Of a stretch of DNA of 6,836 nt, positions 1 through 5,563 are shown one piece after another; position 1 is the first letter of the stretch; every line of letters starts with the position of its first letter. The DNA comes from Bacteroidales bacterium (GTDB lineage Bacteria; Bacteroidota; Bacteroidia; Bacteroidales; UBA932): the NCBI GenBank assembly GCA_023230265.1, contig JALNXR010000110.1, forward strand, positions 1-6,836, read 5' to 3'. The notes under the pieces were generated by a model. The model did not search any database, was not told where the DNA came from, and was given only the letters and a program-made list of their open reading frames with translations. The position numbers and the translations under genes are program-made.

Positions 1-625
1 ACAGAAATCTGTTGTGATGGATTTCATTTGACGAATCATAGTCGCTGCTGCGATGAATTTTTGAAGGCGGGCAAAGCAGTATCCCCTTGTCGGCTGCCTG
101 CCGGAGTGCTCCGGTCATCAGCCCCAATGAGGTGATTTTTTCATCGGCGGCTGCGGTTATGTCGATATGCTCAACCACGAGTTTAAGCGCCAGCAGATCT
201 GCGCTTACGGCCTCTGCAATGTTCGGCCGGTTTGATTCGGGATTTTTCCAGATCATGACGACAGACTCACCCGGTTCCGGATCGGCAGCGCGGGCGGCCG
301 AAGGCGGATCGATCAGGCTGGCAAGGCGTTTAAAGGAAACCGGATACAGTTTAAGTGTCGGGTTTACCGTATAGGATGAGACGGCTGGAAACGGTTGGCT
401 TTTTTCGGTACTCAGCTGCCGGAATGCCCTTTCGATCCGGGCAAGTTCGGACAGAAAATCCGGAAGGCCGTTCGGTGCGGCCAGGCGTTGCAGCAGCTGC
501 GGGACATCATCCGGCGGCAGTCCTGTCCCACACGCCGCCTGTATTCTTCCCCAGGCTTTATCATCTATGACTGAGCGGCATGTGGGGTAGACCGTTTCAA
601 ATGTTTCAACCTCAGTTGTTGACAC
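1..625 (-). CDS. sbtM: Radical SAM peptide maturase, selenobiotic (SbtM) family, N-terminal part only
   Basis: The frame is open for 208 codons from GTG 625 to the window edge, so the gene is truncated by the window. The GTG start is fixed by an AAGGA Shine-Dalgarno (633-637) with a 7-nt spacer and by an in-frame TAA a few codons upstream. The visible part is the region that precedes the radical SAM core: it begins MSTTEVETFETVYPTC, continues with a Leu/Pro-rich helical segment, and ends near KIHRSSDYDSSNEIHHNRFL. The CxxxCxxC cluster would lie beyond base 1, so the radical SAM call rests on resemblance to the N-terminus of selenobiotic maturases and on the adjacent UGA-containing precursor 42 nt upstream. 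If right, the enzyme would use a 4Fe-4S cluster and SAM to modify the SbtA peptide. Plus-strand ORFs across this region are shadows. The coding region is certain; the family is fairly likely. Confidence 0.8.
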   Translation of the reverse strand, partial: MSTTEVETFETVYPTCRSVIDDKAWGRIQAACGTGLPPDDVPQLLQRLAAPNGLPDFLSELARIERAFRQLSTEKSQPFPAVSSYTVNPTLKLYPVSFKRLASLIDPPSAARAADPEPGESVVMIWKNPESNRPNIAEAVSADLLALKLVVEHIDITAAADEKITSLGLMTGALRQAADKGILLCPPSKIHRSSDYDSSNEIHHNRFL

Positions 626-667: not shown

Positions 668-865
668 TTACTCGGTCTTTTCCTTGTCTGTGCCACCGGC
701 ACAGGAAGATCCGCCGCTTCAACTGCTCTGGGAGCTTCCAGCTCCCGGTTTCTCACCGGATCATGCGCTTGCCTTCTCACATCCGTTGAGCGTGAGAGCC
801 GTACCGGCAATCAGCCCGGCGATACAAAATCCTGCCAGAATTTTTTTAAGCTCATTGCTGTTCAT
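668..865 (-). CDS. sbtA: Selenobiotic-type radical SAM-modified precursor peptide with two selenocysteine (UGA) codons
   Basis: Starting at ATG 865, after a strong AGGAGG site (874-879), the frame runs 65 codons to TAA 668-670, with TGA at codons 35 (761-763) and 49 (719-721). Read as selenocysteine (U), the protein has a charged N-terminus (MNSNELKK), a hydrophobic leader (residues 9-27) ending in a lipobox-like LNGC (26-29), then a Gly/Ser-rich core with three repeats: SAUSGE, SSUSGG and SSCAGG. The third repeat has Cys where the others have U, which strongly supports Sec rather than stop. A SECIS-like hairpin follows each UGA at identical spacing. The maturase gene starts 42 nt downstream on the same strand. 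This matches the selenobiotic family of radical SAM-modified, Sec-containing target peptides. The host would need selA/B/C/D, which are not in the window. Final product and function are unknown. The alternative, two nonsense mutations, fits the repeats and hairpins poorly. Confidence 0.85.
689..703 (-). promoter_or_regulatory. SECIS-like hairpin for the second UGA of sbtA
   Basis: On the minus strand, TGTGCC-GGT-GGCACA forms a perfect 6-bp stem with a GGU loop. It starts 15 nt after UGA 719-721, so the loop GG again falls exactly 22 nt past the codon. The loop GGU resembles the GGU core of well-studied bacterial SECIS loops. The matched spacing at both UGAs is the main argument that both are recoded. 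Confidence 0.7.
730..746 (-). promoter_or_regulatory. SECIS-like hairpin for the first UGA of sbtA
   Basis: On the minus strand, GGGAGCT-GGA-AGCTCCC forms a perfect 7-bp stem with a 3-nt loop. It begins 14 nt after UGA 761-763, so the loop GG starts 22 nt past the codon. Bacterial SECIS elements lie inside the coding region just after the UGA, with a G-containing apical loop at about this distance. A smaller CCGGT/ACCGG stem lies between the UGA and this hairpin. Confidence 0.65.
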
Positions 866-868
866 GGT

Positions 869-896
869 ATTCACCTCCTGGTTTTGGTTGGTGAAT
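869..896 (-). promoter_or_regulatory. Hairpin over the sbtA ribosome binding site
   Basis: On the minus strand, ATTCACC (890-896) and GGTGAAT (869-875) form a perfect 7-bp stem around a 14-nt loop. The sbtA Shine-Dalgarno AGGAGG (874-879) lies partly in the stem and partly in the loop, 8 nt from the ATG. This could limit or tune translation initiation; a regulatory role is inference. Confidence 0.4.
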
Positions 897-1026: not shown

Positions 1027-1054
1027 ATTATAGCGATATGCCGGCTGGCGTCAA
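1027..1054 (-). promoter_or_regulatory. Sigma70-like promoter for the sbtA-sbtM operon
   Basis: Minus-strand TTGACG (1049-1054) and TATAAT (1027-1032) are separated by 16 nt, an 11-of-12 match to the consensus hexamers. Transcription would start near 1020, giving a leader of about 155 nt before the sbtA ATG. No other promoter of similar quality is seen between here and sbtA. It abuts the outer end of the large inverted repeat at 1066. Confidence 0.6.
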
Positions 1055-5495: not shown

Positions 5496-5563
5496 GCACA
5501 ACGTTCCGGGTAACTTGCCGGGCGCGTCGTTTTGACCGGACAATGTTCACCCGGTGGTTAGCG
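5496..5563 (-). other. attC site of the tail-anchored protein cassette
   Basis: Minus strand: R'' CGCTAAC (5557-5563), left arm CCGGGTgAACaTTG then CCGG, loop AAAACGACGC, right arm GCCCGG then CAAGTTACCCGG, and R' GTTGTGC (5496-5502). The stem has an extrahelical G at the standard place. It is a near copy of the attC at 1955-2020, suggesting that the two cassettes were made in the same kind of host. Length 68 bp. Confidence 0.85.

Follow-up and report, generated by a model that had tools for sequence, protein, structure and literature searches.

A selenopeptide gene of the SbtA family in a Bacteroidales contig and the PME1-like module of its maturase

A thio(seleno)oxazole system of ribosomally synthesized and post-translationally modified peptides (RiPPs), consisting of SbtA and SbtM, was reportedly described by Lewis et al. 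in 2021. Here, a gene pair of this type is compared with it and with related systems: the precursor gene sbtA and the adjoining maturase gene sbtM, situated on the minus strand of a stretch of 6,836 nucleotides from a Bacteroidales bacterium (assembly GCA_023230265.1, contig JALNXR010000110.1; in the following, the window is this whole stretch). Published work is cited by accession number from the parts of each paper that were available, and statements based on it refer to those parts. In vitro, SbtM is reported to remove four hydrogens from cysteine (Cys) and selenocysteine (Sec, U) peptides, the Cys product being a thiooxazole (PMC11002830), and the modified peptide shows the same band near 305 nm, as the captophorin paper notes (PMC12668002). 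A review table names the SbtA family 'selenobacteriocin', with two Sec per protein (PMC13188914). The class, which the sequence-only reading of the window had called scarcely studied, is thus not undescribed, as NCBIfam also holds models for both precursor and maturase.

The second group of systems to be compared comprises the bufferins, oxazolins, and captophorins. The PME1-dependent MNIO enzymes of these pathways use O2 and make 5-thiooxazoles, and PME1 goes with precursors bearing signal peptides (PMC12452194, PMC12668002); the characterised products generally bind Cu (PMC12668002). The precursors of pearlin and methanobactin are treated as distinct from the signal-peptide-bearing ones (PMC12452194).

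The sbtA gene, its UGA codons and their hairpins

The window does contain a selenopeptide gene, one that belongs to the known SbtA family and comprises the following features:

668 to 865, minus strand: sbtA, selenopeptide precursor; 65 codons, of which 35 and 49 are UGA, followed by TAA as stop (translation with TGA as U; TIGR04081)
761 to 763, minus strand: UGA codon 35, predicted Sec (translation, covariance model, UGA/Cys exchange in relatives)
719 to 721, minus strand: UGA codon 49, predicted Sec (translation, covariance model, UGA/Cys exchange in relatives)
730 to 746, minus strand: SECIS 1 (selenocysteine insertion sequence), stem of 7 bp, loop GGA, 21 nt between UGA35 and loop (folding z -2.2; model R1)
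688 to 704, minus strand: SECIS 2, stem of 7 bp, loop GGU, 21 nt between UGA49 and loop (folding z -0.6; model R1; double change to U-A for G-C)
701 to 703, minus strand: Cys55 codon within the 5' half of the SECIS 2 stem, perhaps a third site of modification (alignment A2; fits the site pattern [SGT][SGA][UC])
779 to 865, minus strand: leader, residues 1-29, with KK, a hydrophobic run and the lipobox L-N-G-C; predicted to act as lipoprotein signal peptide and to be recognised by SbtM (regular-expression scan; TIGR04081)
874 to 879, minus strand: Shine-Dalgarno motif AGGAGG (read from the sequence)
1027 to 1054, minus strand: promoter-like TTGACG-16-TATAAT, candidate only (consensus scan)

Read from 865 to 668 with TGA as U, the frame yields MNSNELKKILAGFCIAGLIAGTALTLNGCEKASAUSGEKPGAGSSQSSUSGGSSCAGGTDKEKTE, a peptide that the first frame of the plus strand from 668 to 865 does not encode. 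A frame of 65 codons with two recoded TGA codons at these coordinates had already been proposed from the letters of the DNA, with the strand left out. TIGR04081, the NCBIfam model for SbtA precursors of thio(seleno)oxazole RiPPs, matches residues 1-26 with 48.1 bits (curated cut-off 30.5). Downstream of UGA35, the frame is kept in comparison with nine close relatives (the close clade: L001-L004, L091, L100, L101, L106, L108), with 77, 37, and 130 differences at the three codon positions, counted over nine comparisons that are not independent. The strong AGGAGG site proposed earlier lies at 879-874, ahead of the ATG at 865-863, whereas of the proposed promoter only a candidate can be given: 11 of 12 consensus positions match at 1054-1027, in a scan with a threshold of 9/12 and a chance expectation of 0.8 sites in 560-1100. 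The sbtA stop and the GTG of sbtM are separated by 42 bases.

Concerning the two UGA codons, Sec is predicted at both because each is followed at equal distance by a SECIS-type hairpin that covaries in relatives, and this decoding appears nearly certain. Bacterial SECIS are described with a loop of 3-9 nt, a stem of 4-16 bp, a G within the first two loop bases, and a spacing of 16-37 nt (PMC13188914, legend of Fig. 2). The window resembles this model in its loop of 3 nt, stem of 7 bp, G as first loop base, and spacing of 21 nt, whereas it differs in possessing two copies per 65-codon gene, each within a peptide stretch rich in Gly, Ala, and Ser. Among 100 synonymous-codon shuffles, the hairpins take ranks 0 and 1, and SECIS 1 stands at z -2.2 against dinucleotide shuffles. 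In the close clade, 90.7% of cells pair, above every slid version, a lead that is partly built in because the structure counted came from the window's own fold. In the stem of SECIS 2, the window has U-A where 8 of the 9 relatives have G-C; the 5' side of this double change turns Gly into Cys, and the 3' side is a silent third-base change in a Thr codon.

An independent covariance model (R1) was built from 51 SECIS sites lying outside both the window and the close clade (alignment A3; 51 of the 52 listed sites, L037:1275-1313 being left out). These sites show double changes in 6 of 7 pairs and a covariation of 0.490 (0.217 shuffled); the number of pair types is not above that of shuffles. As the sites were chosen for a hairpin at the main offset, the paired percentage and the covariation of A3 are biased upward, whereas the test of R1 on the window and the hairpin counts given below are free of such picking. 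R1 matches the window at 763-725 (UGA35 site; 34.1 bits, E 1.1e-6) and at 721-683 (UGA49 site; 25.9 bits, E 6.1e-5), the next of the 26 listed matches reaching 7.2 bits (E 0.64). Among 13 other loci, every one of the nine from the clade yielded two R1 sites, while the four whose SbtA sites are only Cys or nearly so gave no match below E 0.5.

For the comparison of sites, 70 SbtA-like genes including that of the window were collected by script, at 62 of 69 relative SbtM loci and in the window; 69 were kept after the L093 gene (garbled frame) had been dropped. No SbtA was found at L033, L034, L038, L086, and L102, and those of L027 and L098, recognised by a looser pattern alone, stay outside the counts. 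A second UGA two codons after the last site was by rule read as stop, with hand rules for L109, L037, L095, and L112. Since the genes are related, the following site counts are not independent. The kept genes contain 162 UGA and 54 Cys sites, and U35 and U49 of the window align with UGA in all nine close relatives, such that the expected conservation of the TGA positions as TGA or Cys holds, with Arg at place 35 of P0004, the closest protein match. A hairpin of -6 kcal/mol or better accompanies 147 of the 162 UGA sites versus 7 of the 54 Cys sites, and GAGS-type residues follow 96 of 109 internal UGA sites versus 4 of 40 internal Cys sites. As both features are mostly present at UGA sites and rare at Cys sites, the apparent repeat of the peptide reflects in large part the underlying RNA element. 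For annotation, this means that GAGS-type repeats in SbtA precursors are largely SECIS footprints and that the exchange of UGA for Cys goes with the loss of the hairpin.

The sequence-only reading had listed SAUSGE, SSUSGG, and SSCAGG as three repeats. The last of these is rejected as an independent repeat, because the nine close relatives have SGAGG or SGAGS there and the position falls within the SECIS 2 stem; the TGT of the window in place of GGT alters a stem base whose partner has changed silently. Cys55 nevertheless fits the site motif and may be modified, and P0004 has Cys at places 49 and 55, which suggests that it may be a true site. The layout of the close clade is mostly SAUSG-xKxGAGSS-xSGUSG-xxSGAGGTD...KSGU-x-stop, and a C-terminal site is found in 55 of the 69 genes. 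Despite its similarity to the described SbtA/SbtM system (leader above the model cut-off, UGA sites with SECIS, adjoining sbtM), the window thus differs in possessing two Sec sites without the C-terminal one, a Cys inside the SECIS 2 stem, and an SbtM that is just 34-39% identical to eight close relatives.

Some relatives depart from the usual arrangement. Three Cys sites (L017 Cys95, L110 Cys49, L115 Cys40) keep a SECIS-like hairpin at the right distance and are perhaps recent UGA-to-Cys changes; that of L115 may still serve U35, 15 nt upstream of Cys40. In L028, L040, and L112, a pair of UGAs spaced by 15 nt is accompanied by a single hairpin, which keeps the usual distance to the second of them, such that one SECIS may serve both. 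The SbtA of L094 (genome G505, about 678 to 1328) has 216 residues and ten in-frame UGAs in near-identical SGUGGDKDSAGGADKKDSGK repeats, U155 and U215 being devoid of a hairpin of -6 kcal/mol. At the sbtA ends of L001-L003, L091, and L108, UGA apparently has two meanings two codons apart, a C-terminal Sec site and then the stop, and the hairpin of that site extends past the gene end; L100 and L101 have TAG at the stop place. Three genes at SbtM loci (L031, L096, L097) possess Cys sites only, so that the pathway seems not to need selenium.

Leader peptide, maturase, and genomic surroundings

Each of the 69 leaders has K or R among residues 1-9 and, within residues 1-36, at least 14 uncharged residues in a row. 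A lipobox ends 32 of them (strict rule, window included) and some AxA-like site 34 (loose rule, several matches being plainly chance), while 3 have neither. In the window, LNGC follows the hydrophobic run (regular expression only), and its Cys29 is kept in 9 of the 10 genes of window and clade, with UGA in the remaining one. These leaders look like export signals, from which we infer that the product is probably exported. The UGA that replaces the lipobox Cys codon at codon 29 of sbtA in L004 either reflects an error in sequencing or places Sec at the site of lipidation.

The adjoining maturase named in the sequence-only reading is an SbtM homolog, of which the window contains the N-terminal 208 residues:

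2 to 625, minus strand: 5' part of sbtM, GTG start, 208 codons, running off the window; PME1-like module of DUF2063 and RiPP recognition element (RRE)
380 to 625, minus strand: SbtM residues 1-82, helical part resembling DUF2063 (when aligned by itself, this half of the SbtM profile matches DUF2063 proteins in hhalign at 96.9%)
56 to 379, minus strand: SbtM residues 83-190, RRE-like part with three strands and three helices, predicted to bind the leader

TIGR04082, the SbtM model, matches with 117.3 bits over positions 1-193 of 516 (the cut-off of 350 bits applies to full length, and the remainder lies beyond the window edge). The frame is colinear with eight close relatives, the identity given above applying to what could be aligned; L008, the ninth relative, has a shorter open reading frame (ORF) and was, like some other SbtM, left out of alignment A4 (48 rows). 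The window's SbtM ends about where the FTLQWH and CxxxCxxC stretch of the relatives starts, such that the radical S-adenosylmethionine (SAM) core would lie past the edge; the radical SAM CxxxCxxC and SPASM are present in the three relatives scanned.

By fold and profile, the SbtM domain in the window resembles PME1, the DUF2063-RRE partner protein of MNIO enzymes, whereas Pfam alone gives weak matches only. DUF2063 is rare in the SbtM-bearing phylum (7 of 297 genomes). MNIO (PF05114) was found in none of 43 SbtM genomes, where chance alone would give about one, versus all 7 DUF2063 genomes in the same search, and none occurred among the window ORFs scanned against Pfam. With bufferins, oxazolins, and captophorins, the pair shares the PME1-like module, the signal-like leader, and thiooxazole as the reported product (PMC12452194, PMC12668002). 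The differences are that the SbtM module, as the three scanned relatives show, forms one protein with radical SAM-SPASM instead of being the partner of an O2-using MNIO, that Sec replaces Cys in SbtA, and that MNIO is missing from all 43 SbtM genomes examined; for lack of MNIO, the pair is not assigned to the captophorins. TglI and MbnC, the partners of TglH and MbnB, differ from the SbtM module in being separate proteins.

SbtA relatives were found in four metagenome-assembled genomes (Desulfobacteraceae, Desulfococcaceae, Desulfosarcina, and an Olavius delta symbiont). In a sample of 395 genomes from the phylum to which the Desulfobacteraceae assembly belongs, SbtM exceeds its cut-off in 39; an order sample gave 31 of 291 and a family sample 2 of 30, a patchy spread overall. 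G669 and a second copy in G624 are not included among the relatives, and in viral contigs no SbtA was confirmed. By megablast, the window matched no plasmid or phage, and its SbtM fragment retrieved no genome contig. Sec machinery was rejected as a discriminator of SbtM genomes: selB is over cut-off in 41 of 43 of them, but says little, as 33 of 40 genomes lacking SbtM have it too. When 575 ORFs taken from 41 neighbourhoods were clustered, SbtM itself was recovered in 33 genomes (the caller lost it in 8) and a histidine-kinase type in 10, other genes being scattered over at most 4 genomes each. In one further, unassigned cluster of 10, the two members that were placed are encoded on the other strand, at a distance of about 1 kb from SbtM, and may be shadow frames. 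Within the limits of a crude ORF caller and crude clustering, no third conserved partner gene accompanies sbtAM in these neighbourhoods.

Elsewhere in the window, two genes on the minus strand are likely defence genes, one at 4799-2340 coding for a TrlF/Ppl-like protein with PHP and AAA ATPase (below NCBIfam cut-offs), the other at 6764-6054 for a Cap15-type cyclic-dinucleotide receptor (2TM effector). Two repeats of 37 nt (1965-2001 and 5507-5543), 92% identical and imperfectly palindromic, bracket several minus-strand ORFs and resemble integron attC sites; the second folds little better than shuffles, and no integrase was seen, no search aimed at integrases having been made. Upstream of sbtA, there are two inverted-repeat pairs, 1066-1122/1255-1311 (72% complementary) and 1328-1352/1437-1461 (88%), perhaps small mobile elements.

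Proposed function and rival explanations

No paper was found that settles the role of SbtA thio(seleno)oxazole peptides. New here are the PME1 likeness of SbtM and the reading of the leaders as export signals; a function is proposed from the two combined. With Sec inserted at both UGAs of sbtA, the PME1-like module of SbtM would present the peptide through its signal-like leader, and SbtM would likely turn the Sec residues into selenooxazoles, its radical SAM chemistry doing without O2 what MNIO does with O2. The product would then likely leave the cytoplasm by export of the lipoprotein type, and outside it the seleno- and thio-azoles might chelate a soft metal. That SbtM modifies SbtA is very probable. 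As the best explanation overall, we favour, with some reserve, an exported, metal-binding selenium counterpart of the MNIO thiooxazole peptides made by radical SAM chemistry. Metal binding as such, suggested by analogy, is a possibility that we would put forward tentatively. More speculative still is the specific picture of sbtA-sbtM as an anoxic selenium version of the copper-buffering captophorins, in which SbtM, as a fusion of PME1 module and radical SAM, replaces MNIO and a lipid-anchored selenooxazole peptide traps a soft metal at the cell surface. The decoding has its weak points: SECIS 2 barely beats dinucleotide shuffles (z -0.6), and Rfam returned nothing for the window at gathering scores or for 560-900 at E up to 1, the reach of any Rfam SECIS model not having been checked. 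As to metal binding, the genes in the 41 neighbourhoods lend it no support, and for a related peptide, protection from copper has been questioned by one group (PMC12538549).

The opposite assumption, that the UGAs are ordinary stops in a gene that yields a leader of 34 residues or is in decay, would agree with the missing C-terminal site and with an SbtM cut by the window edge. Nevertheless, it is extremely improbable, as both SECIS score well, one of them with a compensated stem change, coding constraint continues 3' of the UGAs, and the sbtM frame is open over 208 codons and colinear with relatives. Among readings with translated Sec, an exported redox or selenium-storage peptide, with Sec acting as selenol or diselenide and SbtM modifying some sites only, would suit the ten predicted Sec of L094, and Sec is reactive as such. 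An SbtA-like gene at 62 of 69 relative SbtM loci (two more by pattern), the in vitro conversion of both Sec and Cys peptides by SbtM (PMC11002830), and the Cys-only genes, according to which selenium itself is dispensable, make this rather unlikely.

Two further alternatives concern the destination of the product. If exported as in the favoured explanation, it could serve as envelope cofactor or as ligand for another protein instead of as metal buffer, and the lipobox shared by window and clade suggests anchoring; yet no conserved partner gene was seen in the 41 neighbourhoods, and the general Cu binding of characterised MNIO-PME1 products (PMC12668002) points elsewhere, so that we regard this as quite unlikely. 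For a secreted antimicrobial speak the name 'selenobacteriocin' with its two Sec per protein (PMC13188914), the small, repeat-bearing precursor, and Gly-Gly directly before the first site in 4 of 69 genes (L015, L025, L028, L082), similar to double-glycine leaders. However, no immunity, transporter, or protease gene stood out near sbtAM (41 neighbourhoods, crude clustering), most leaders possess lipobox or AxA-like sites, and the peptide downstream of the leader is hydrophilic and rich in Gly and Ser, which renders an antimicrobial decidedly unlikely.

Returning to the exported, metal-binding selenium counterpart of the MNIO products, the likeness of SbtM to PME1 ties the SbtA peptides to those that bind copper, a large class that is understood in part, and the question of their function becomes one testable question of binding. 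If the proposal is true, two unrelated enzymes, one using O2 and the other radical SAM chemistry, would rely on a common presenting module and arrive convergently at the same heterocycle.
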